A stretch of DNA of 36,465 bases from Rhodoferax sp. (GTDB taxonomy: Bacteria; Pseudomonadota; Gammaproteobacteria; Burkholderiales; Burkholderiaceae_C), in the NCBI RefSeq assembly GCF_018063565.1, contig NZ_JAGPBB010000040.1, positions 1 to 36,465 of the forward strand. The letters are read 5' to 3'. Of this stretch, positions 12,025-25,122 are shown piece by piece. The position numbers and the translations under genes were made by a program. Numbering within the stretch: position 1 is the first letter of the stretch; each line of letters starts with the position of its first letter. Under the pieces are notes generated by a model that was given only the letters and a program-made list of their open reading frames with translations, was not told where the DNA came from and searched no databases.

Positions 12025-13077
<1,053 letters not shown>

Positions 13078-13257
13078 GGGTTGTTCTCCTTCAGTTTGAT
13101 TTGAAAGTCTTCCTTGCCCTTGGGCCAAGGATGTGGGTGCGAACGTTGCCAGCTTGGTTTCCGTCTAAGAACACAAGTGGCAGTGCATCACGCAGCAGTC
13201 ACCTGACAAAGATCAAATTCATAGGTGATCTGCTGAGCAGGAGTCTCCCGCAACGTG

Positions 13258-13384: not shown

Positions 13385-14815
13385 CTACGCGCTGGCGCCT
13401 GTGGCCGGCAACTCCAGCACCACCCGCAAACCACCCAGCGACGATTCGCCTAGTTCCACCCGGCCACCGTAGAGGCGGGTCAAATCATCCACGATGGCCA
13501 GCCCCAGGCCAGAGCCTGCCACCTGCTCATCGGCGCGCACGCCCCGGTGCATCACGGCATCACGTTGGTCGGCGGCAATGCCGGGGCCGTCGTCGTCGAG
13601 CGTCAGGCGCAAGCTGGCGGCGTCAACCTGGGCCTTCATCAGAACGGTGTGTCGAGCCCACTTGCAGGCGTTGTCCAGCAAGTTGCCCAGCATTTCCTGC
13701 AAGTCCTGCGTTTCGCCGCGAAGGCACAGGGTTTCGGCGATGGGTTCCACCGTGATTTCAAGCTGTCGCTCGGCATAAATGCGGCGCATCACCCGCACCA
13801 GCCCCTCAATGACCGGTTGCAGTGGTGTGCTGGCTCCGGGGTGGCGGACCGTGGCTGCCACCCGCGCCCGGGCCAGGTGGTAGTCCACCTGCTGGCGCGC
13901 CAGGCCGACCTGATCGATCACCAGCTGCGCCAACTCAGTGGCAGGGGTGTGTTTCTGCTCAGTCGCGTGGGCCGCATTGGACAGCACAGTCAGTGGCGTT
14001 TTAAGCGCATGCGCCAGATTGCCGGCATGGGTGCGGGCGCGGGCCACCACCTCGGCGTTTTGCAGTAGCACCTTGTTGAAGTCATCCACCAGCGGTGTCA
14101 ACTCTGCGGGAAACACACCGTCAAGCCGCTGCGTCTGGGCGTTGCGCAATTTGCCCAGTGCATCGCGCAAAGTGCGCAGTGGTGCCAGCCCCACCAGCAC
14201 CTGCACCACAGCCGCCAGCATCAAACCCAGGGCCAGCACGCCCAGCGCCAGCCACAACATGCCGTTGAAGCGCTTGACCGGTTCAACCATGAAGCGTTCA
14301 TTGGCGGCGGCAATCAGCCGAAAAACCCGAGGCTGGCCCGTACCGGCATCTTCCAGGCGAACACTGCGCTCAACCACTCCCAGCCACTGTGCCTGCGGCC
14401 CAAGAATGCGGTGCTGGTGTGTTTCGCCGTCAGCGGGGACGTCGGCCGGCAGCGCCAACACATGATCCCACAGCGAGCGCGAGCGAAGCTGGCCGACTGC
14501 CGATACTGTGCCCGCTGGCGCATCGCTGAGCTGGTCAACCTGCCAGTAATATCCCGAAAAAGGTCGGCTCAGCCGCGGGTCACTCAAAGGCTGCGTCAGT
14601 TGTGCCTTGCCCTGGGCATCCTGCGTGAGCTGGGCGGTCAGCTGGTCAAGCTCGGTCGTGAGTTCGAGGTGAAACTGTGCCGCCACATGCTGGTGAAACA
14701 GGCCGCTTAAGCCCCAGCCCGCCAACGCAATCGTGGCACTGATCCAAAACAGCGTGCCCGCCAGCAGGCGAAAGCGCAGCGAACCACGCAAAGGGGGCAG
14801 ATTCAGCCATTTCAT
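13385..14815 (-). CDS. Sensor histidine kinase, PhoQ/QseC-like
   Basis: This 476-residue inner-membrane kinase has a first transmembrane helix at about 16-38, a periplasmic sensor of about 145 residues, a second helix at about 186-210 and a HAMP-like linker. The dimerisation/phosphoacceptor box is AHALKTPLTVL (His269). The ATPase domain has an N-box (NLLDNACKWA), G1 (DDDGPGI) and G2 (GSGLGLAIV). The HALKTPL and DNACKWA spellings are those of the PhoQ-like subgroup. The ATG overlaps the response-regulator stop by 4 bases, so the pair is coupled. The signal is unknown; neighbouring haem genes suggest a redox, oxygen or nitric oxide related input. Confidence 0.93.
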   Translation of the reverse strand: MKWLNLPPLRGSLRFRLLAGTLFWISATIALAGWGLSGLFHQHVAAQFHLELTTELDQLTAQLTQDAQGKAQLTQPLSDPRLSRPFSGYYWQVDQLSDAPAGTVSAVGQLRSRSLWDHVLALPADVPADGETHQHRILGPQAQWLGVVERSVRLEDAGTGQPRVFRLIAAANERFMVEPVKRFNGMLWLALGVLALGLMLAAVVQVLVGLAPLRTLRDALGKLRNAQTQRLDGVFPAELTPLVDDFNKVLLQNAEVVARARTHAGNLAHALKTPLTVLSNAAHATEQKHTPATELAQLVIDQVGLARQQVDYHLARARVAATVRHPGASTPLQPVIEGLVRVMRRIYAERQLEITVEPIAETLCLRGETQDLQEMLGNLLDNACKWARHTVLMKAQVDAASLRLTLDDDGPGIAADQRDAVMHRGVRADEQVAGSGLGLAIVDDLTRLYGGRVELGESSLGGLRVVLELPATGASA

Positions 14816-15474
14816 GGCGGCAGCGTCAGGCGGTATCCCTGGCCGCGCACGGTTTCGATCAGGCCGGCGGGTAGCTTCTTGCGCAGGCGGGCGACAAATA
14901 CCTCGACGGTGTTGGAGTCGCGATCAAAATCTTGTGCATAAATGTGCTCTACCAGCACGCTGCGCGACACCACCTGGTCGCGGTGGTGCATCAGGTAGGC
15001 CAGCACCCGGTACTCGTGACTGGTCAGGCTGAGCGCCTGCCCGGCCAGCGTCACCCGGCTGTTGCGGGTGTCCAGCGACAGTGGGCCGCACACCAGTTCG
15101 GCACTGGCATGGCCACCGGCGCGGCGGATCAGCGCACGCAGTCGGGCAAGCAGCTCTTCCATGTGAAACGGCTTGCTCAGGTAGTCATCGGCCCCGGCGT
15201 CAATGCCGGCCACTTTTTCAGACCAGCCATCGCGCGCGGTGAGGACCAATACCGGCATGCTGCGTCCCGCAGCCCGCCATTTGCGCAACACCGACAGGCC
15301 GTCCATGCGGGGCAAGCCCAGGTCAAGCACGACCGCATCGTAGGCTTCGGTGTCACCCAGGTGGTGGGCGTGGATCCCGTTGTCGGCCAGGTCCACCACA
15401 TAACCGGCGGATTGCAGGCCCTCATCGAGCTGAAGCAGCAAGGTGGGCTCGTCTTCAACTATCAGCAGGCGCAT
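14812..15474 (-). CDS. Response regulator, OmpR/PhoP family
   Basis: This 220-residue regulator has a receiver domain with acidic pocket VEDEP (residues 6-10), phosphoacceptor Asp51 (VVLDLGLP), TARD near 80 and the conserved Lys in LSKPF. A C-terminal winged helix follows (LTSHEYRVLAYL, then SNTVEVFVARLRKKL and VRGQGYRL). It lies 55 bases after the PepSY gene and overlaps the kinase gene. Its likely targets are the symmetrical half-site array at 15942-15978 and perhaps the CTTAA pair at 13258-13273. Confidence 0.94.
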   Translation of the reverse strand: MRLLIVEDEPTLLLQLDEGLQSAGYVVDLADNGIHAHHLGDTEAYDAVVLDLGLPRMDGLSVLRKWRAAGRSMPVLVLTARDGWSEKVAGIDAGADDYLSKPFHMEELLARLRALIRRAGGHASAELVCGPLSLDTRNSRVTLAGQALSLTSHEYRVLAYLMHHRDQVVSRSVLVEHIYAQDFDRDSNTVEVFVARLRKKLPAGLIETVRGQGYRLTLPP

Positions 15475-15529: not shown

Positions 15530-15886
15530 TTAGCGCTGAACCGGCCGATTCTTGCCTTTTTGGTCGATCAAGCTTCCATCGCGGCCATCAATCTTGAGTT
15601 TGACCAGCGCGCCACCGGGGCGCAGAAGTTTGATCTTGTACACCCAGCGCGCGCTGTCAGCATCTTTTTCACGGTCGAGTTCCACATCGAGAATCTGGCC
15701 CGCATGGTCGCGCTCCACCCGCTGCAGCACGGTGGCCAGCGGCAGAATTTCGCCCGCTTCAAGCGCGCGGCGAGCGCGGTCGTGATCGGTGTCAGCCTGG
15801 CACAGGCCGGCCACACACACCAGCAGAACAGCGCACATCCAGCGCAGTAGTTGTGGCCAGGGCTGGTCCTGTAATCGGGTTGACAT
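15530..15886 (-). CDS. PepSY-domain periplasmic protein
   Basis: This 118-residue exported protein has a signal peptide ending near GLCQA and then one PepSY module (EAGEILPLATVLQRVE, later WVYKIKLL and VKLKIDGRDGSLI). PepSY domains are small periplasmic modules often linked to two-component systems and haem or iron membrane proteins. The start at 15886 gives the best signal; an in-frame ATG at 15895 and a TTG at 15907 are possible, and all have weak ribosome sites. It heads the operon with the response regulator and kinase, and may tune the kinase or respond to it. It faces the SHP gene. Confidence 0.85.
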   Translation of the reverse strand: MSTRLQDQPWPQLLRWMCAVLLVCVAGLCQADTDHDRARRALEAGEILPLATVLQRVERDHAGQILDVELDREKDADSARWVYKIKLLRPGGALVKLKIDGRDGSLIDQKGKNRPVQR

Positions 15887-15921
15887 GAAAAACATTCTTG
15901 GGCGCAAGGTGTGTTGGCGGC

Positions 15922-15996
15922 TATTTATAACCCGGCCAACATGAACGCAGGATGAACAGCCAATTCACGCAACGTTCAGGCAGGTTTGAGCATAGT
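15922..15996. promoter_or_regulatory. Divergent promoter region with a four-part TGAAC operator
   Basis: TGAAC at 15942-15946 and 15953-15957 points one way, and ATTCA (15963-15967) and GTTCA (15974-15978) point the other, all at 10-11 bp steps. This arrangement fits two head-to-head dimers of an OmpR-type regulator. To the right, CATAGT (15991-15996) can serve as -10 for the SHP operon. To the left, TTATAAATA read on the minus strand (15922-15930) can serve as -10 for the PepSY-regulator operon. The motif is seen; the binding protein is inferred. Confidence 0.65.
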
Positions 15997-16039
15997 ACGT
16001 CCCATAACACCTTGATTCAACTCAACCGAGCCACTCATC

Positions 16040-16462
16040 ATGCACCACAAACTGTCTACTCTCCTGCTTGCCACCAGTCTGACCCTGGGCTTTTCCAGCG
16101 CCGTCTTGGCCGGCCCGCGTGAAGACCAACTGGCCCAGTACGCCAGCGCGGCCAAGGCGGCTGACCCGGCATTCTCCGGGTTTTCGGCCGTGCGCGGCAA
16201 GACCCTGCACAGCCAGACCTTTACTGGCGGCAAGCCCGACACACCGAGCTGCACCAGTTGCCACGGCACCGACCCCCGTGCCGCCGGGCGCAATGCCACT
16301 GGCCGGGCGATTGAACCGGTGGCGTTGTCCGCAGCACCCACACGCTACACCGATCCAGCCAAAGTCGAGAAGTGGTTCAAGCGCAACTGCACCGAAGTCA
16401 TGGGGCGCGAATGCAGCCCAGCAGAAAAAGGCGACTGGCTGAGCTTCATGTTCGGCCAGTAA
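16040..16462 (+). CDS. shp: SHP-type monohaem cytochrome c (DUF1924)
   Basis: This 140-residue secreted c-type cytochrome has a signal peptide ending AVLA (about residue 24) and one haem motif, CTSCH (71-75). Its tail KRNCTEVMGRECSPAEKGDW is typical of the sphaeroides haem protein family. In that family the haem is high-spin with an Asn sixth ligand that leaves on reduction so oxygen or NO can bind. Asn116 beside Cys117 is the candidate, and Cys117 and Cys125 could form the family disulfide. It is first in a four-gene plus-strand cluster with DHC, matching the known SHP-DHC gene pairing. The ligand assignment is by family analogy. Confidence 0.85.
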   Translation: MHHKLSTLLLATSLTLGFSSAVLAGPREDQLAQYASAAKAADPAFSGFSAVRGKTLHSQTFTGGKPDTPSCTSCHGTDPRAAGRNATGRAIEPVALSAAPTRYTDPAKVEKWFKRNCTEVMGRECSPAEKGDWLSFMFGQ

Positions 16463-16514
16463 CTGACTCAATAGACACGCTCATGCCGCCAACTTGCAAC
16501 CACCCGAAAACACC

Positions 16515-17006
16515 ATGAACACTCCTTATCGTCCCTTGGCCTTGGGCCTGCTTGCGCTGGGCTTTTCAGTGCTGCTGTTTAGCCGCGTGCAAGCGGGTGG
16601 CAGCCATTATTTTGCCCCGGTAGTCGACCCAGTGGTCAAGGCCGAATGCGGCACTTGCCACCTGCCTTTTGCCGCGTCGATGCTGCCAGCCAGTTCATGG
16701 AAGCGTTTGATGGGTGACTTGAAGAATCACTTTGGCGACGATGCCAGTCTGGACGCAGCCCTGAACCAAAAAATTACTGATTACCTGCAAGTCAATGCCG
16801 CCGACACCGGTGGCAGGGTGTATGGCAGCAAGCTGCTGCGCAACGTGTCGCTGACCAACGCGCCGCTGCGCATCACAGAACTGCCCAAGTGGACCAGCGC
16901 GCACGCCAAAGTGCCGGCCTGGGAGTGGCGACACAAGGATGTTCGCACCAAAGCCAACTGCACCGCCTGCCATGCAAATGCCGAACTGGGTTACTACGAC
17001 GAGTAA
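16515..17006 (+). CDS. dhc: Dihaem cytochrome c, DHC family
   Basis: This 163-residue periplasmic cytochrome has a signal peptide to about RVQAG (28) and two haem motifs, CGTCH (45-49) and CTACH (149-153). WEWRHKDVRTKANC before the second site is characteristic of DHC. In the known pairing DHC passes electrons to SHP. I start at the ATG at 16515; the TTG at 16494 lacks a ribosome site. It lies about 50 bases after the shp stop and before a PepSY gene, so the order is electron acceptor, carrier, then probable membrane donor. Confidence 0.88.
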   Translation: MNTPYRPLALGLLALGFSVLLFSRVQAGGSHYFAPVVDPVVKAECGTCHLPFAASMLPASSWKRLMGDLKNHFGDDASLDAALNQKITDYLQVNAADTGGRVYGSKLLRNVSLTNAPLRITELPKWTSAHAKVPAWEWRHKDVRTKANCTACHANAELGYYDE

Positions 17007-17054
17007 GAGCGGCTGTTTTTCGTCTTCGCCCATCACCCAACCAAGGCTCACACC

Positions 17055-17450
17055 ATGTCATTCAAACCACTTTTTGCTTTCATCGCACTGAGCAGTGCAC
17101 TACTGATGCCGGCTTTTGCCGATGACAAACGCATCACCACGGCCCCAGAGCGCCAGTGGCTGTCGATCGCCCAGGTTGCGGCCAGGCTTGAAGCCGCTGG
17201 CTACCGGCAGATCGAAAAAATTGAGCGCGAAGGGGGCGGCTACGAGGCGCGCGCCACCAACCAGGCCGGCGAGCGGACCAAGCTGTACATTAACCCACAG
17301 ACGGGTGCCCTGGCCAGTCAGCATGGCAAAGCTCGCAGTGGTGGTGCAGCCGATGGCGCAGGCAGACAGGACAGCGCGACCTGCAATGAACGCCGCTGTC
17401 GCGACGACTTACCCGCCATACCGACAACACCTACTGCAGCCGTCAAGTAG
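17055..17450 (+). CDS. PepSY-domain secreted protein
   Basis: This 131-residue protein has a clear signal peptide (cut after MPAFA, residue 22) and one PepSY-like module (WLSIAQVAARLEAAGY, then YEARATNQAGE and LYINPQTGAL). A low-complexity tail with two Cys (SATCNERRCRDD) follows. It is the second PepSY protein of this block, the other being the divergent gene at 15530. It sits between the DHC and flavocytochrome genes, so a role in assembling or modulating that electron route is plausible but unproven. Confidence 0.8.
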   Translation: MSFKPLFAFIALSSALLMPAFADDKRITTAPERQWLSIAQVAARLEAAGYRQIEKIEREGGGYEARATNQAGERTKLYINPQTGALASQHGKARSGGAADGAGRQDSATCNERRCRDDLPAIPTTPTAAVK

Positions 17451-17594
17451 TTGCATTCGATGGCCGGTGGCTTGAATCCATGCAATTCATTGGTAAAAAG
17501 AATTTATAGCCCCCGTCCTTCTCTCGCTGACAGCAATATTCTTTGAAGTTCACTCCAAGCAGCTTTGTCTCTAGATTCACCTGATTTCGTCGTC

Positions 17595-18902
17595 ATGAAA
17601 ACCATTCTTGCCAGTTTGATCGCCATTGTTACCCTTGCCTGGGGTTGGGATGTCTTGTCCAGCGTCTCGCCTGCTGGCGTGCATCCGCTGTGGGCGGCTC
17701 GCGCTGAGATGATGTACTGGAGCGGGCTGGTATCAGTGGCCATGCTGTCGCTGGTGATGTTCTTGGCCACTCGCCCGGCGTGGCTGGAGCGGCCGTTGGG
17801 GGGCATGGACCGCATTTACCGCACTCACAAGTGGGCCGGCATTCTGGCCGGCATTTTTGCCGCGCTGCACTGGCTTGGCGAAATGTCTGGCGACATCATC
17901 AAAGGCATGATTGGCCGCGAGGGACGCCTTCCCAAAGAGCAGTTCACCGGCTTGCTGGAAGTACTGCGCGACCTGGCAGGTGACATGGGCGAATGGGCCA
18001 TTTACGCCCTGCTGGCCATGCTGGCGATTACGCTGTGGAAGAAGTTCCCTTACCGCGCCTGGCGCGTGATACACCGCGCCATGCCGGTGCTGTATTTGAT
18101 GCTGGCTTTTCATGCAGCGCTGCTCGCACCCACTGACTACTGGCTGCAGCCGGTGGGCCTGCTGCTGGCGTTGTTGCTGCTGGCCGGGGTATACGGCGCT
18201 GTGCAAGCGCTGCGCAACGACATTGGCAGAGCCCGCGAGGCATCGGGCCGCATCACTGCCGTGGATCACCCGTCTCGTGACATCAGCAGCGTCCAGTGCC
18301 AGCTCGATGCCGGCTGGCGTGGCCACCGGGCCGGTCAGTTTGCATTTGTCACTTTTGATGACAAAGAGGGCGCGCACCCGTTCACCATTGCCAGCGCCGA
18401 CCGCGGCAACCAGACCGTCAGCTTTCAGATCAAGGGCCTGGGTGATTACACCCGGGGGCTGGCGGCGCGCCTGCATGTGGGTCAAAAAGTGAAGGTTGAA
18501 GGACCTTACGGGCGTTTTGATTTCACCCGCAGCAACCCCAAAGCCCGTCAAATCTGGATTGCCGGTGGCATTGGCGTGACACCGTTTCTGGCCTGGTTGG
18601 AGTCCTTGCAGGCCGACCCACAAAAAATGCCAGCGGTCGACCTGCATTACTGCACCCGTGACGCAAATGGCGATGCCTTTGTGCCGCGCTTGAAATCACT
18701 TGGCGCGGCATTGCCCGGTATCCGGCTGCACATTCATGGGGCCAGTCAAGGTTCCAGCCTGACTGCGCAGGCGCTGGCGGTTTCCAGCAAAACCGAAATC
18801 TGGTACTGCGGCCCGGCCGGTTTGGCCAACATGCTCCGCGCTGGTTTGAGGTCGATGGGCGCAATGCCCCGCTTTCATCAGGAAGCGTTCGAGATGCGGT
18901 AA
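17595..18902 (+). CDS. Ferric-reductase-like membrane flavocytochrome
   Basis: This 435-residue protein has an N-terminal ferric-reductase-like transmembrane domain with about six helices. Candidate haem-ligand pairs are His78/His92 and His160/His173. An FAD-binding domain follows (HPFTIAS at 261-267; GPYGRF at 303-308), then an NAD(P)-binding domain (IAGGIGVTP near 322 and YCGPAGL near 404). The fold carries electrons from cytoplasmic NAD(P)H through FAD and two b haems to the outer face. Its place downstream of SHP and DHC suggests DHC as acceptor, in the slot where other species carry a cytochrome b. The ATG at 17595 is preferred over a TTG at 17565 because the first helix starts there. 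Confidence in the family is high; the partner is inferred. Confidence 0.88.
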   Translation: MKTILASLIAIVTLAWGWDVLSSVSPAGVHPLWAARAEMMYWSGLVSVAMLSLVMFLATRPAWLERPLGGMDRIYRTHKWAGILAGIFAALHWLGEMSGDIIKGMIGREGRLPKEQFTGLLEVLRDLAGDMGEWAIYALLAMLAITLWKKFPYRAWRVIHRAMPVLYLMLAFHAALLAPTDYWLQPVGLLLALLLLAGVYGAVQALRNDIGRAREASGRITAVDHPSRDISSVQCQLDAGWRGHRAGQFAFVTFDDKEGAHPFTIASADRGNQTVSFQIKGLGDYTRGLAARLHVGQKVKVEGPYGRFDFTRSNPKARQIWIAGGIGVTPFLAWLESLQADPQKMPAVDLHYCTRDANGDAFVPRLKSLGAALPGIRLHIHGASQGSSLTAQALAVSSKTEIWYCGPAGLANMLRAGLRSMGAMPRFHQEAFEMR

Positions 18903-18917
18903 GGGCGCATTGCGCCC
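18903..18917 (+). terminator. GC hairpin directly after the flavocytochrome stop
   Basis: GGGCGC-ATT-GCGCCC forms a perfect 6-bp stem immediately after the TAA. No T-run follows, so it may be an RNA-end stabiliser or a weak, factor-assisted terminator. Confidence 0.45.
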
Positions 18918-19316: not shown

Positions 19317-19322
19317 CTATTC
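19090..19322 (+). repeat. Repeat pair, copy B (~233 bp)
   Basis: About 94% identical to 10275-10506 in the same orientation. Its right end covers the last codon and stop (GAA TAG on the minus strand) of the RND pump gene. The repeat is therefore the natural 3' flank of this gene, or the gene and the flank were duplicated together. Confidence 0.9.
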
Positions 19323-22300
19323 CTGCAATGCCGCGCTGCGCCCCAGCAGGCGGCGCACCCACCCCCCAAAATCATCCACCACGGTGAACACTGCCGGAAT
19401 CACCAGCAGGCTCAGCACGGTCGAGGTCATCAGGCCGCCAATCACGGCGACTGCCATCGGCGAGCGAAAGCTGGCATCGGCTGCACCCCAACCTACCGCA
19501 ATCGGCAGCATGCCCGCACCCATGGCCAGCGTGGTCATGATGACCGGGCGCGCCCGTTTGTGGCAGGCATCCAGCAGCGCGTCGTGCCGGCTCATCGGGG
19601 CCACCACGGGGTGGCCGTCGCTGCCGTCATGGCCGCGGCGCGCCACGATGGCGTACTCCACCAGCAAAATCGAGTTTTTGGTGGCAATGCCCATCAGCAT
19701 GATCAGCCCGATCAGCGACGGCATCGAAAAACTCATGCCGGTGCCCAGCAACGCCACAAACGCACCACCCAGCGACAAGGGCAGCGCGGTGAGGATGGTG
19801 AACGGGTGCAAAAAGTCCTTGAACAGCAGCACCAGCACGATGTAGATGCACAAAATGCCGGTCAGCATGGCCAGGCCAAAGCTGGCAAACAGCTCGTCCA
19901 TCACTTCGGCATCACCCAGCGCCAATTGTTTTACCCCTGGCGGCAGCGATGTAATCGAGGGCAGCTTGGCCACAGCCTCGGTCACGTCACCCAGCGGCGC
20001 ACCGGAGAGCTCAATCTCGAAGGTGATGTTGCGCGAGCGGTTCAGCCGGTCGATGACGGCCGGCCCGCCAGTCAGCGACAAGCTGGCCACTTGGCTCAGC
20101 ATCACCGGCCCGCGTATGCCCGGAACCGCCAGCCGCCCCAGCAGTTCCAGATCTTGCCGCGCCACATCCGCCAGCTTGACGACGATGGGCACCTGGCGCT
20201 GGCTCAAATTGAGCTTGGCCAGACCCGCGTCGTAATCACCCACGGTGGCGATGCGCAGCGTCTCGCCAATGGCGCTGCTGGTCACGCCCAGGTCGGCAGC
20301 GCGGGCAAAGTCGGGGCGCACTGCCACCTCGGTGCGGATCAGGCTGGCGCTCGATGCAATTTGCCCCAGACCGGGAATGGTGCGCAGGTCTTTTTCCACC
20401 GCGGTGGCGGCCGTTGCCAGCGCCAGCGGGTCTTCGCCGGTCAGCACCAGCAGGTATTTTTCGCCCGAGCCGCCCAAGCCGACCTTGCTGCGTACGCCGG
20501 GCAATTCGGCCAGTAAAGCGCGGATCTCGTTTTCAATGCCCTGTTTGCGCGGGCGTTTGCCGCGCTCGGTCAGCAGCACCGTGAGTGTGGCCTTGCGCAC
20601 CTCGGTGGTGCCGGGTGGCGCAAACGGGTCTGAGCCTGCCGCCCCAGCGCCAATGGTGGTGTAGACGCTTTGCACTGTGGCCAGCCGAGTCAAAAGTTGG
20701 CGCGCGGCCTCTGCGGTGGCACGGGTCTGCGCCAGCGTGGCACCCGGTGGCAGCTCCAGATTCACCTGCGTTTGCGAGTTGTCATCGGGCGGGATAAAGC
20801 CCTTGGGCAGCAGCGGAATCAGCATCAGCGAACCCACAAAAAACGCGCCGGCGGCCGCCATGGTGAGCCAGCGGTGACTTAACGCCCAGTCGCTCCAGCG
20901 CAGGTAGCGCGCCATCCACCACGGCTCCTTGTGCTGGCGGGCGCTGGGCTTCATCACATAAGCGGCCATCATCGGGGTCAAGGCGCGCGCCACCACCAGC
21001 GAGGCCAACACGGCGAGTGCCGCCGTCCAGCCAAACTGCTTGAAAAACTTGCCCGGAATGCCGGCCATGAAGGCGGTCGGCAAAAACACCGAGACCAGCG
21101 TGAAGGTGGTGGCGATCACCGCCAGGCCAATTTCGTCAGCCGCTTCCATGGCCGCCTGGTAGGGCGTTTTGCCCATCTGCAGGTGGCGCGTGATGTTCTC
21201 CACCTCGACAATCGCATCGTCAACCAGCACACCAATCACCAGCGAGAGCGCCAAGAGCGTGATCACGTTGACCGAAAACCCCAGGTAGCCCATGCCGATA
21301 AACGCCGGAATCACCGACAGCGGCAACGCCACCGCCGACACAAAGGTGGCGCGCAGGTTGCGCAAAAACAGCCACACCACCACCACCGCCAGAATCGCAC
21401 CCTCGTACAGCAGCACCATCGAGCCGTCGTACTCTTCGGCCACCGGGGTGACAAAGTCAAACGCTTCGGTCAGCTCCATGTCGGGGTGCTGGGCCTTTAA
21501 CTCTTCGAGGGCCAGACGCACCGCCGCACCCACTTCGACCTCGCTGGCACCGCGGCTGCGCGATATCTCAAAACCCACCACCGGCACGCCATTGAGCAGG
21601 GCAATGGCACGCGGCTCGGCCACCGTGTCGGTCACGCTGGCCACTTGATCGAGCCGCAGGCGGCGGCCGTCGCTCAGGCTCAGTTCCAGTTGCGCCAGTT
21701 CGGCCACGGTTTTGACCGTGGCCAGGGTGCGCATGGGCTGCTCGCTGCCGCCAATGTCGGCGCGACCACCGGCGCTCTCGGTTTGCACCAGGCGCAACTG
21801 GCGCGAGATGTCGGCGGCCGTGGCGCCCAGCGCCTGCAGTTTGAGGGGGTCCAGCGCCACTTCCACCTGGCGCGTCACGCCGCCGACCCGGCTGATGGCA
21901 CCCACGCCCTTGACCGACAGCAGCCGGCGCGTCAGCGTGTTATCCACAAACCAGCTCAAGGCCTCGTCGTCCATGCTCGGCACGCGCACGGTGTACGCCA
22001 GAATCGGCGCGCCAGCCAGGTCCATCTTGCGCACCACCGGGTCGCGCACGTCGGTGGGCAGGTCGGCGCGCACACCTTGCACGGCCGAGCGCACGTCATC
22101 CACCGCCTCCTGCGTGGGTTTTTCCAGCCGGAACTCGGCAGTGACGGTGACACCGCCGTCCTGCACCTTGGTGTAGATGTTTTTCAGGCCCTGCAAGGCG
22201 GCGATGGCGTTCTCGATCTTGCGCGCCACCTCGGTTTCAAGCTGCGCGGGTGCCGCACCGGGCAGCGAGGCTGTCACTGTCACCGTGGGCAGGTCGAGGT

Positions 22301-22415
22301 CGGGAAACTGCTGCACCTTCATGGCCTTGAACGACAACAGGCCGGCAAAGCTCAGCAGCACAAACAGCATCACCGCCGGAATCGGGTTGCGGATCGACCA
22401 GGCTGACACATTCAT
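19317..22415 (-). CDS. RND-family efflux pump, inner-membrane transporter (AcrB/HAE1 type)
   Basis: This 1032-residue proton-driven pump has the classic duplicated layout of twelve membrane helices and two large periplasmic loops. The first helix starts at once (SIRNPIPAVMLFVLLSFAGL). The proton-relay acidic pair is in GVLVDDAIVEVENI near residue 400, and the partner Lys is in GIATKNSILLVEY near 930. The ribosome site AAGGAG lies 8 bases before the ATG. It is 12 bases downstream of the adaptor gene and last in the operon. The substrate class (drugs, solvents or others) cannot be decided. The final codon is shared with repeat copy B. Confidence 0.95.
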   Translation of the reverse strand: MNVSAWSIRNPIPAVMLFVLLSFAGLLSFKAMKVQQFPDLDLPTVTVTASLPGAAPAQLETEVARKIENAIAALQGLKNIYTKVQDGGVTVTAEFRLEKPTQEAVDDVRSAVQGVRADLPTDVRDPVVRKMDLAGAPILAYTVRVPSMDDEALSWFVDNTLTRRLLSVKGVGAISRVGGVTRQVEVALDPLKLQALGATAADISRQLRLVQTESAGGRADIGGSEQPMRTLATVKTVAELAQLELSLSDGRRLRLDQVASVTDTVAEPRAIALLNGVPVVGFEISRSRGASEVEVGAAVRLALEELKAQHPDMELTEAFDFVTPVAEEYDGSMVLLYEGAILAVVVVWLFLRNLRATFVSAVALPLSVIPAFIGMGYLGFSVNVITLLALSLVIGVLVDDAIVEVENITRHLQMGKTPYQAAMEAADEIGLAVIATTFTLVSVFLPTAFMAGIPGKFFKQFGWTAALAVLASLVVARALTPMMAAYVMKPSARQHKEPWWMARYLRWSDWALSHRWLTMAAAGAFFVGSLMLIPLLPKGFIPPDDNSQTQVNLELPPGATLAQTRATAEAARQLLTRLATVQSVYTTIGAGAAGSDPFAPPGTTEVRKATLTVLLTERGKRPRKQGIENEIRALLAELPGVRSKVGLGGSGEKYLLVLTGEDPLALATAATAVEKDLRTIPGLGQIASSASLIRTEVAVRPDFARAADLGVTSSAIGETLRIATVGDYDAGLAKLNLSQRQVPIVVKLADVARQDLELLGRLAVPGIRGPVMLSQVASLSLTGGPAVIDRLNRSRNITFEIELSGAPLGDVTEAVAKLPSITSLPPGVKQLALGDAEVMDELFASFGLAMLTGILCIYIVLVLLFKDFLHPFTILTALPLSLGGAFVALLGTGMSFSMPSLIGLIMLMGIATKNSILLVEYAIVARRGHDGSDGHPVVAPMSRHDALLDACHKRARPVIMTTLAMGAGMLPIAVGWGAADASFRSPMAVAVIGGLMTSTVLSLLVIPAVFTVVDDFGGWVRRLLGRSAALQE

Positions 22416-22427
22416 CTGGTGCGCTCC

Positions 22428-23615
22428 TTATTTACTAGCTGCTGGCGCAGGTAGCACCTGCGCTGCAGTGCTTTTTTCTTTGGAAATCGGTGCCGCTGCA
22501 TCGACCACGCGCACCAGATCGCCGTCGCTCAAGAAACTCGCGCCACTGGCGACCAGCCGGTCGTCTGGCTTGATGCCAGAGAGGATCTCAACCTGATCGC
22601 CCAGCACCCGCCCGGTTTGCACCTTGAGCTGGGTCACGCGCTGGTCCGCGCCGACGCGCATGACAAAGCTGAAGCCCTCGCGTACCAGCACCGCGCTTTG
22701 CACCACGGTCAGCGCGCTCGACTGGCCCAGCTCAAACTCGCCGCGCGCAAACATGCCCGGCTTGAAAGCCCCGGCCTTGGCACCGGCTGGCATGGGGGGC
22801 AAATCGACATACACCAGCCCGTTGCGGCTCTGCGCATCAACGGTGGGGGCCACCATGCGCACCCGGCCTTTGAGTTGCGCGCCACCCGGCGCAGTCACCA
22901 GCACGCCGGTGCCGACGCTGACGCGGCCCAGCTCGGCCGAGGTGAGTTCGGCACGCCACTCCAGCCGGCCCTGGCGAATCAGGCGAAACATTTCCACGCC
23001 CGCGCCCAGCACCGCGCCCACGGTGGCGCTTCGCGCCGAGACGATGCCAGCATCGGGCGCCAGCACCTGGGTGTGCTTCAGCCGCAGCAACTGGGTATCG
23101 AGCTGCGCCTTGGCCGACTCGACGCGGGCGCGTGCCGTCAGCTCCTGCGTCAGGTACTGGTTGACCTGTTGCGCGCTCAAGGCGCCGCTGCCCTGCACCG
23201 CGCGGGCGCGCTCGGCATTGGCACTGGCATCCAGTGCATTGGCCTGCGCCTCAGCCAAACTGGCGCGCGCCAGCGCCACATCGGCTTGCACGCTCTCAGG
23301 CGCAAAAGTGGCCAGCACCTGGCCGCGTTGCACCGCATCGCCCACGCCCGCCATCAATTCCTGCACCCGCAGGCCGTTGGCTTCTGCCCCGACGATGGCC
23401 TCTTGCCAGGCGGCCATGCTGCCGTTGGCAGCCAGCTTGATCGGCAGGCTGCCAACACGTGCCTGGGTCAGCGTGACGGTCAGGGCGGGTTTGCCAGCGG
23501 CTGCCGGTGGGCTGGCATCGGCTGCCGCCGACTGTTGACCCCACAAGCCCAGGCCGCCCAGGGCCAACGCTGCCAGCACCGCCAGAGACACCGATTGAAG
23601 TCGAATGGATCGCAT
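22428..23615 (-). CDS. RND periplasmic adaptor (membrane fusion protein)
   Basis: This 395-residue adaptor links pump and outer-membrane channel. It has an N-terminal signal or anchor (SLAVLAALALGGLGLWG), a lipoyl-like half (ANGSMAAWQEAIVGAEANG and VQRGQVLATF), an Ala-rich coiled-coil hairpin at about 110-175 (ARASLAEAQANALDASANAE), and a beta-barrel and membrane-proximal part. The start at 23615 begins a proper signal segment; 83 further upstream in-frame codons overlap the preceding gene and are rejected. It lies 28 bases after the outer-membrane factor stop. Confidence 0.93.
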   Translation of the reverse strand: MRSIRLQSVSLAVLAALALGGLGLWGQQSAAADASPPAAAGKPALTVTLTQARVGSLPIKLAANGSMAAWQEAIVGAEANGLRVQELMAGVGDAVQRGQVLATFAPESVQADVALARASLAEAQANALDASANAERARAVQGSGALSAQQVNQYLTQELTARARVESAKAQLDTQLLRLKHTQVLAPDAGIVSARSATVGAVLGAGVEMFRLIRQGRLEWRAELTSAELGRVSVGTGVLVTAPGGAQLKGRVRMVAPTVDAQSRNGLVYVDLPPMPAGAKAGAFKPGMFARGEFELGQSSALTVVQSAVLVREGFSFVMRVGADQRVTQLKVQTGRVLGDQVEILSGIKPDDRLVASGASFLSDGDLVRVVDAAAPISKEKSTAAQVLPAPAASK

Positions 23616-23643
23616 GAAAAACTCTCTTGCTGTTAATTTGAAG

Positions 23644-25041
23644 TCAACTGCGAGCCAGGTCAGGCGCAAAACCGCCACCCACTGCTCGGTACAAGGCCAC
23701 CCAGGCGCGCTGGCGCTCCAACGCCAAAGCCAGCACCGACGACTCGGACGCCAGCGCGTTGCGCCGGGCGTCTTCGAGCTCGAACAGGCTGGCCAGGCCC
23801 TGGTCAAAGCGGTTTTGCGTGGCTGCCAGCGCCTGCGCATAACCCTGGGTCGCGACCTGGGCATCGCTGGCGCGGGCCTGCGTGCCGGCCAGGGTGATCA
23901 GCGCTTCTTCGACCTCGCGCACCGCCTGGCGCACCCGCGCCTGATACACCACCACCGTGGCCTGATAGTTGGCCTGCGCCGCAGTGACCTGCGCGGCGCG
24001 CTGGCCGGCGTCAAACAGCGGCAGACTCAATGCCAACGGACCAAACGACCAGGTACTCAGGCTGGTGGTTTCACCCCCCGTGCTGACGCGCAAGCGGCCA
24101 ATCGAGCCATTCAGGCTCAGACGCGGCCACTGCTGGGCTTTCGCGCTGCCCACCTGCGCGCTGGCCAAAACCACGTCGCGCTCGGCGGCAAACACATCGG
24201 GCCGTTGCGAGATCACATCAACCGGCAAAGATGCTATTGAAAACGGTGCTGCCTGAGAATATGGGATATGCGCTAGAGCCAGTTTTTTCATCAAATCAGG
24301 CTCAGGGACACCGGTCAGGGCCACCAAGCCTTTGACATCGAGCGCGCACGCGCTGGATTGTTGCGTGACCCGGCTGGCGGCCTCTGACGCGCTGGCACGT
24401 GCCATGGCCGCCACCGACGGTGCCACAAAACCGGCCTGCGCGCTGATGGCACTCAGACGTGCCGTCTCCTGGCGCGACCCGGCGTCACGCGCCAGCACCG
24501 CCAACTGCTGCTGGCAGTGGCGTTGGCTATACAGCAGGTTGGCGACCTCAGCTGCCACCGACACGCGCGCGTCGTGCCACTGCGCCTGCGCGCCCTCGAC
24601 CTGCGACTGCGCCGCCTGGCTGACGGCCCGGTTGGCACCCACCAGGTCAAGTTCCCACGAGGCTTGCAGCCCGCCCTGCACGGTACTGGCCAGAGGCACA
24701 CCGGACTGGCTGACACCCCGGCTGGCGCTGGCCTGGGCACTGAGGTTGGGCAGCAGCGCTGCGTTGGCAGCGGCCTGGTTGGCGCGTGCCGATGCGATGC
24801 GCGCCTGCGCCTGCGCCACCGAAGGGCTGACACCTTGCGCCGCCGAGATCAGCTCGGCCAGCAACGGGTCGCCCTGGCGCTGCCACCATTCGGCCAGAGA
24901 TGCCACCGAGCCCTGGTGTGGCAGCGGCGCCTGCCAGGCGGGGGCGACCTGGCTTGGCACCTGGGTGGGTGGCATGATATGGGCACAGGCCGACAGCAGG
25001 GCAGCCAGCAGCAAGCCGGGCGTTGCGGTCATTCGATTCAT
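23644..25041 (-). CDS. Outer-membrane efflux channel, NodT/OprM-type lipoprotein
   Basis: This 465-residue outer-membrane factor has a lipobox LLSAC with Cys near residue 18. Two outer-membrane-efflux repeats follow, rich in Ala/Gln coiled coil (AQARIASARANQAAANAALLP is given in parts: AQARIASARANQ, then LLPNLSAQASAS; and a second copy VGSAKAQQWPRLSLNGSIG). The start at 25041 has AAGGAG 10 bases upstream; an ATG three codons on is possible. It is first of the three pump genes, unlike the more usual adaptor-pump-channel order, and 81 bases after the small secreted-protein gene. Confidence 0.92.
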   Translation of the reverse strand: MNRMTATPGLLLAALLSACAHIMPPTQVPSQVAPAWQAPLPHQGSVASLAEWWQRQGDPLLAELISAAQGVSPSVAQAQARIASARANQAAANAALLPNLSAQASASRGVSQSGVPLASTVQGGLQASWELDLVGANRAVSQAAQSQVEGAQAQWHDARVSVAAEVANLLYSQRHCQQQLAVLARDAGSRQETARLSAISAQAGFVAPSVAAMARASASEAASRVTQQSSACALDVKGLVALTGVPEPDLMKKLALAHIPYSQAAPFSIASLPVDVISQRPDVFAAERDVVLASAQVGSAKAQQWPRLSLNGSIGRLRVSTGGETTSLSTWSFGPLALSLPLFDAGQRAAQVTAAQANYQATVVVYQARVRQAVREVEEALITLAGTQARASDAQVATQGYAQALAATQNRFDQGLASLFELEDARRNALASESSVLALALERQRAWVALYRAVGGGFAPDLARS

Positions 25042-25122
25042 TGGACAGGCACTCCTTTTGCGCAAGATTGTCCACGAGGCCGCGTTTCGCTGCCTGCGGG
25101 CAAGCCTGGGCAAGGGGTTGGC

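Follow-up and report, generated by a model that had tools for sequence, protein, structure and literature searches.

A NOX-family flavocytochrome in the place of cytochrome b in a variant SHP operon of Rhodoferax

Electrons are usually proposed to reach the c-type haem protein SHP from quinol through cytochrome b and the dihaem cytochrome c DHC. The 36,465 nt contig NZ_JAGPBB010000040.1 of Rhodoferax sp. (assembly GCF_018063565.1; this whole stretch is called the window below) raises the question of how SHP is fed where a different membrane protein is encoded beside it: genes for SHP, DHC, a PepSY_2 protein and a flavocytochrome diverge from those for a second PepSY protein (PepSY1), a response regulator and a sensor kinase, and no cytochrome b561 match was obtained among these module genes (Pfam). 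The usual membrane donor of the SHP cluster appears to be replaced by a relative of the animal NADPH oxidase. This exchange of the donor, from cytochrome b to flavocytochrome, was well supported by comparison with relatives, and the seven genes are rather likely to be one co-regulated variant of the SHP operon in which SHP is supplied from NAD(P)H. The module genes are as follows.

13385..14815, - strand: SK1-type sensor kinase (Pfam HATPase_c 2.6e-16), with SGYYWQ and RSRSLWD in the periplasmic part
14812..15474, - strand: OmpR-type response regulator (Pfam Response_reg 9.1e-27, Trans_reg_C 5e-24)
15530..15907, - strand: PepSY1, secreted PepSY protein, Orf1/DbfQ-like kinase partner (Pfam PepSY 2e-7; likely ATG 15886)
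16040..16462, + strand: SHP, c-type haem protein (DUF1924; Pfam 3.1e-35; PDB 1dw0 1.6e-31)
frame 16494-17006, likely ATG 16515, + strand: DHC, dihaem cytochrome c (Pfam 2e-35; PDB 2fw5 1.5e-31)
17055..17450, + strand: PepSY_2 protein with a C-terminal CxxRRCRDD tail (Pfam 1e-17)
frame 17565-18902, likely ATG 17595, + strand: NOX-family flavocytochrome, two-haem membrane part and FAD/NAD(P)H domain (Pfam, SpNOX similarity)

The likely start codons of DHC and the flavocytochrome were chosen from the sequence and from relatives; that of PepSY1 is our own choice and lies downstream of the -10-like hexamer on its side. SHP and DHC are adjacent, as in the canonical SHP operon (open frames, Pfam). 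The entry 2fw5, the top PDB match to the DHC of the window, carries the name DHC, and 1dw0 is the SHP of Rhodobacter sphaeroides. The flavocytochrome matched Ferric_reduct (2.1e-17), FAD_binding_8/6 and NAD_binding_1 (21.1 bits, just below the cut-off of 22). The HisKA match of the kinase (19.6 bits) was under the Pfam cut-off, and its top NCBIfam match, PhoQ, was far below cut-off (165.6 of 497 bits).

An earlier note on this DNA had described the arrangement of the seven genes on the two strands, and all of it was found in the open frames and Pfam matches. The genes that it assigned to 15530-18917 are present, except that the response regulator and kinase fall outside this interval (13385-15474); the two PepSY genes said to bracket the module do flank SHP and DHC, and the flavocytochrome gene sits beyond the second of them. 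That the flavocytochrome occupies the place of the cytochrome b usual in SHP operons, and that SHP retains its Asn-ligand motif and its DHC, holds in the comparisons below.

A probable exchange of the electron donor

Species genomes were scanned with the flavocytochrome alignment, and the best 80 of 186 relatives were analysed; these include Rhodoferax, Accumulibacter, Propionivibrio, Dechloromonas, Azonexus, Thiobacillus, Sulfuritalea, Gallionellales and others. Metagenome bins make up most of this set, and counts are of loci and not of independent events, because some loci are the same genome under two names (L050/L072, L051/L085, and several of L249-L260 with L076-L142).

Trees were calculated with FastTree from short proteins, and the short SHP alignment resolves few forks. 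The SHP tree has a branch (support 95) that sets the 71 flavocytochrome-linked rows apart from 80 cytochrome-b-linked and 11 unassigned rows; in the DHC tree, a branch with support 99 separated 74 flavocytochrome-linked rows from 84 cytochrome-b-linked and 6 unassigned rows. Only 6/80 relatives had a cytochrome b (own model) at a distance of 6 kb or less from the flavocytochrome. At locus L207, from the family of the window, an SK1-motif kinase, regulator and PepSY1 diverge from SHP, DHC and cytochrome b561, with the operator described below at one mismatch. The exchange is well supported because flavocytochrome-linked SHP and DHC each form one clade and because L207 keeps the regulators with cytochrome b561.

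The haem residues of SHP are kept in both types. Aligned with 1dw0, the sixth-ligand pair Trp84/Asn88 and the pair Cys89-Cys97 correspond to Trp112, Asn116, Cys117 and Cys125 of the precursor, which together with CxxCH were invariant in all 71 flavocytochrome-linked and all 80 cytochrome-b-linked rows. The two types differ at Arg80, Tyr103 and Trp133, which are invariant in the flavocytochrome type and occur in a minority of the cytochrome-b type.

Within the class sample, SHP was detected in 58/369 genomes and a flavocytochrome in 9/369 (E 1e-60); in the genus sample a flavocytochrome was found in 21/89 genomes (E 1e-100). The flavocytochrome type is the minority form of the SHP cluster within the class.

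The unit resembles the SHP operons of Meyer, Kyndt and Cusanovich (2010; PMC2909971) in its SHP, DHC, SK1-motif kinase, response regulator and Orf1 and in its divergent layout; it differs in the donor, a membrane cytochrome b there and a NOX-type flavocytochrome with PepSY_2 here. The string 'flavo' is absent from the text of that paper (PMC2909971), and no pairing of SHP with a flavocytochrome, and hence no description of the exchange, was found in the open-licence literature searched. The single parts are each known.

The flavocytochrome

Over 83 rows, His 88, 102, 170 and 183, HPFT, CGP and the C-terminal FHQEAF showed conservation of 98% or more. The nearest solved sequence was SpNOX (1.2e-34); an AlphaFold2 model (pLDDT 84.7, pTM 0.80) used for a fold search returned SpNOX first (E 6.8e-24, TM 0.73/0.79), followed by NOX5 and DUOX1. 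The protein has the features of the NOX family, namely a membrane haem domain with an FAD/NAD(P)H domain, four histidines and the NOX fold, and shares the domain order of SpNOX (PMC5676040). SpNOX makes superoxide, and under argon it reduced cytochrome c, at lower efficiency (PMC5676040). In the window, by contrast, a protein acceptor is suggested because the flavocytochrome shares its operon with a dihaem cytochrome and SHP; NAD(P)H would be its electron source.

MsrQ-like transmembrane systems likewise have a PF01794 membrane part, often with a NAD-binding domain, that feeds an extracytosolic acceptor, but are defined by ApbE or flavinylated partners (PMC8238504). The candidate acceptor here is DHC, and no ApbE or flavinylated-partner domain was found with Pfam among the seven genes or in the neighbouring gene at 12025-13128.

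Flavocytochromes also occur in other settings. On conjugative plasmids (Marinobacter, Citrobacter; L247:8168-14372 and L248:8167-14369; 18 plasmid records in all), genes for PepSY, DUF2271, a large PepSY protein and a VIT1/CCC1 transporter lie behind a relative of the flavocytochrome, and a regulator and kinase diverge from them. At L152:6952-10124, a distant flavocytochrome, whose genome-search match contains one TAA, stands directly before SHP, DHC, cytochrome b, a response regulator and a kinase, perhaps an independent pairing.

Conservation of the unit

The search for the same seven-gene neighbourhood that the earlier note had proposed was made over the 68 relatives in which the flavocytochrome is preceded by 4 kb of sequence or more. 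All seven genes were present in 42/68 loci, more than chance would give, and only PepSY_2 was missing in 10. Among the remaining loci, SHP, DHC and PepSY_2 stood without regulators in place in 4, and SHP and DHC without regulators in place in 1; regulators, PepSY1 and PepSY_2 occurred without SHP or DHC in 3 (L138, L143, L149), and regulators, PepSY1 and DHC without SHP and PepSY_2 in 2; PepSY_2 was the sole partner in 1, and the flavocytochrome was alone in 5. SHP and DHC together were kept beside the flavocytochrome in 57/68 loci, and DHC in 59/68. Across the 42 complete loci, the correlation between the pairwise distances of any two of the seven proteins is 0.83-0.91.

DHC is tied to the flavocytochrome, because three genomes (L076, L081, L252) keep the pair without an adjacent SHP. 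Among DHC-only loci, no SHP remnant was detected in L076 and L250 (best E 7.9), and L081 and L251 gave no hit at all. Downstream of the flavocytochrome there is no general partner, the commonest neighbour families recurring in at most 11 loci. In a Zoogloea bin, the open frame ahead of the flavocytochrome (L119:7664-7984) seems to join the beginning of SHP in frame to the end of DHC, which would make it a decayed copy.

The PepSY_2 tail

PepSY_2 consists of a folded core and a disordered tail with C-x4-C in CxxRRCRDD. In 63 distinct PepSY_2 proteins (row L074, a wrong-frame stretch, was excluded from the alignment), the tail accompanied SHP and DHC in 49, neither the tail nor SHP with DHC occurred in 9, 3 had SHP and DHC without the tail and 2 the tail without SHP and DHC. 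Among rows on the flavocytochrome tree, 53 had both the tail and SHP with DHC, 7 had neither and 1 was a mismatch, a second flavocytochrome in L086; L098 was left out as frameshifted, and L147 was scored as without SHP and DHC because its SHP belongs to a cytochrome-b operon. This tree offers only 3 independent pairs, of which 2.8 agree on average (sign test p 0.25); the sisters L149 and L124 (support 100) differ in the tail and in SHP/DHC together. The link would be to DHC, because L252 has the tail with DHC and no SHP. The apparent tracking of DHC by the tail is suggestive only. In L237/L238 the tail is present with neither SHP nor DHC beside it, and two extra PepSY_2 copies in L140 have no tail.

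Sensor cassette

SK1 motifs and SK1/regulator/Orf1 cassettes of SHP operons were already described by Meyer et al. (PMC2909971), and the window has SGVYWQ-like and RSRSLWD-like motifs with Orf1 beside the kinase. The motifs are conserved in 59 rows. In flavocytochrome-type SHP clusters, 56/57 kinases have RSRS[LF]W and an adjacent PepSY1, the remaining kinase being a fragment; among 44 kinases of the cytochrome-b type, 13 have motif and PepSY1, 8 have PepSY1 without the strict motif and 23 have neither. Because PepSY1 adjoins SK1-motif kinases, the SK1-linked Orf1 of Meyer et al. would, by position and kinase motif, be a PepSY protein corresponding to PepSY1.

A small secreted PepSY protein adjoining regulator and kinase is also the arrangement of DbfQRS, and of BqsPQRS in Pseudomonas aeruginosa, where two PepSY proteins lie beside BqsRS (PMC12714742, PMC12666569, PMC4682146); the target genes differ, and here a four-box symmetric operator serves both divergent units. 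The DbfS sensor domain is bound, with a Kd of 30 nM, by the PepSY protein DbfQ, which promotes phosphatase activity (PMC12714742), and in Rhodospirillum homologous orf1 genes flank a divergent promoter on both sides (PMC2909971). The earlier note called a pair of PepSY proteins in one divergent unit unusual and their role undescribed; both the pair and a role have published counterparts, and the novelty claimed was largely anticipated. The view that the two-component system is dedicated to the unit fared better: the divergent units share one symmetric operator, and a search of the own genome with up to 2 mismatches allowed gave no second site, although a backward control pattern also gave 1.

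Operator and promoters

The intergenic regions of 62 loci, the window included, were compared with shuffles by three-base blocks. In the window, the following elements lie between the divergent units.

15924..15929, - strand: -10-like hexamer TATAAA on the regulator/PepSY1 side, 12 bp from the operator
15942..15978, no strand: symmetric operator TGAA-N7-TGAA-N7-TTCA-N7-TTCA
15991..15996, + strand: -10-like hexamer CATAGT on the SHP side, 12 bp from the operator

Direct repeats of 6 bases at a 5-base gap were present in up to 51/62 loci versus at most 3 in shuffles, and the complete four-box pattern was exact in 57/62 loci versus 0 over 200 shuffles. A -10-like hexamer 12 bp outside the operator, with at least 4/6 matches, was found on the PepSY1 side in 57/61 loci (at most 10 at other spacings tried) and on the SHP side in 28/61 (at most 2 at other spacings tried). 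Regulators of the PhoP class lie at a similar distance from the -10.

Loci that lack SHP retain the putative operator, and in L125, L136 and L139 it stands ahead of a flavocytochrome gene on its own. It occurs twice in 11/80 loci, in 9 of which PepSY_2 follows the second copy; L086 and L090 have the unit interrupted by inserted genes, with an exact operator in front of each of the two halves. No operator within 2 mismatches was found in L108, L145, L147, L150 and L153 (80 loci, 19 rechecked by hand and the rest by script). Across the order, exact operators were found in 16/399 genomes (control 0): by our reading, 10 of the 16 sites adjoin PepSY, flavocytochrome, regulator or PepSY_TM genes, and the other 6 (G750, G755, G617, G706, G677, G632) look like repeats or chance. 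At L239:3692-8057, the operator is followed by genes for PepSY_2, a PepSY_TM-flavodoxin-FNR protein and ApbE, another membrane reductase under seemingly the same switch. A genome-wide regulon was set aside, no second site having turned up in the search of the own genome described above.

The regulator class looks shared with the cytochrome-b SHP clusters, because TTCA-N7-TTCA half-boxes occur in 14/21 of those with PepSY1 (maximum 3 in 5 shuffles). The BqsR box, TTAAG-N6-TTAAG, has the same pentamer-N6-pentamer layout as the repeats here (PMC4682146); BqsR-type boxes were rejected for these clusters, TTAA-N7-TTAA being present in only 2/21.

Proposed working and alternative explanations

Electrons from cytoplasmic NAD(P)H would pass through FAD and the two b haems of the flavocytochrome across the membrane to periplasmic DHC, which would reduce SHP and so enable it to bind O2 or NO. 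Reduction of SHP by DHC, binding of O2 by SHP and a reported NO dioxygenase activity of Rhodobacter SHP are on record (PMC2909971). Secreted PepSY1 may modulate the SK1-type kinase as DbfQ modulates DbfS; the kinase would activate the regulator, which would bind the two opposed direct repeats and fire both promoters. PepSY_2 probably goes with the reductase, its Cys tail being associated with DHC. The signal would most likely be a divalent metal (Fe2+) or envelope damage, and SHP would most likely carry out O2/NO chemistry in the periplasm, for example NO dioxygenation; signal and output are the weakest points of the proposal. The earlier note had favoured a diatomic gas or a nitrogen/oxygen stress as the signal, neither of which is singled out by anything in the sequence, and the published hints are of metal and envelope: BqsS binds Fe2+ (PMC12666569), DbfR is activated by outer-membrane damage (PMC12714742), and DUF1924 (log2FC 7.10), two DHC genes, cytochrome b561, a regulator and FieF rise together when Allochromatium vinosum is on pyrite and not on sulfide, although this SHP operon is of the cytochrome-b type and pyrite is not a clean metal test (PMC11267869). 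The genes behind the operator of L239 and the VIT1/CCC1 transporter next to the plasmid relatives of the flavocytochrome are further hints of this kind, and all of these equally favour the metal-reductase alternative given below. No Thiobacillus Fe(II) expression data were found in the open-licence literature.

Several observations weigh against a dedicated NAD(P)H-fed line. The own genome also holds a canonical SHP operon with cytochrome b (second SHP, L033), and L106, L110 and L147 hold both kinds of cluster side by side. Neither SHP nor DHC is next to the flavocytochrome in 9/68 loci, and it can do without them because regulators, PepSY1 and PepSY_2 remain in 3 of the 9. The -10 match on the SHP side is weak, and the hints of a metal or envelope signal come from other regulators and organisms. 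In the main alternative, flavocytochrome and PepSY_2 would be a metal (ferric) reductase and SHP and DHC would only be co-regulated by the same metal- or envelope-sensing system and fed elsewhere, for instance by a canonical cytochrome b. PepSY_2 and flavocytochrome with regulators and without SHP or DHC (L138, L143, L149, L154, L245) fit such a role, as do the operator of L239 and the VIT1/CCC1 transporter of the plasmid relatives (52-53% identity), which adjoin PepSY, DUF2271 and a second PepSY protein; MsrQ-like clusters with VIT1 have been proposed as iron reductases (PMC8238504), and the Fe2+ binding of BqsS is in keeping with it. It is nonetheless considered unlikely, given the retention of SHP and DHC in most loci, their flavocytochrome-specific clades and the association of the PepSY_2 tail with DHC; moreover, the plasmid clusters lack the SK1 motif (kinase read in frame) and have no operator at fewer than 3 mismatches.

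That the flavocytochrome is a true oxidase releasing superoxide into the periplasm, with DHC and SHP handling the product or the surrounding O2, appears very improbable. The activity of SpNOX, its nearest solved relative (PMC5676040), and the O2 binding of SHP (PMC2909971) speak for it, but a dedicated SHP-reducing dihaem cytochrome would be an odd partner, and no dismutase or peroxidase family was matched among the module genes or 7 further window proteins scanned (E up to 1e-10).

The electron line to SHP is preferred, and a broader form of it is put forward only tentatively. A NOX-family enzyme might have a dedicated dihaem cytochrome, and not O2 or Fe(III), as its acceptor, wiring NAD(P)H to an O2/NO-binding c-type haem protein; a secreted PepSY_2 with its CxxRRCRDD tail might dock the reductase to DHC or act as a redox switch between the two; and the whole might be switched on, through the one symmetric operator, by a PepSY-kinase pair that senses metal or the envelope, the same regulator class being combined with exchangeable reductases (cytochrome b561, NOX-type, PepSY_TM). 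The conserved operon gives both SHP and the bacterial NOX relatives a testable candidate partner. Isolates among the relatives include Dechloromonas sp. H13 and Rhodoferax sp. U2-2l; the operator offers a way to approach the inducing signal, and the PepSY_2 tail is a defined target for deletion.

Neighbouring genes

An RND pump (19317-25113, - strand) converges on the flavocytochrome, and no link between them was found; it scored 656 bits with multidrug models and 334 bits with CusA/CzcA, both below cut-offs. Adjoining the kinase, the gene at 12025-13128 (- strand) encodes a cytochrome c (Cytochrome_CBB3, Pfam) behind a long Thr-Pro repeat linker. The own genome carries a second, distant NOX-type flavocytochrome on another contig (L160:5605-6954, contig C109).

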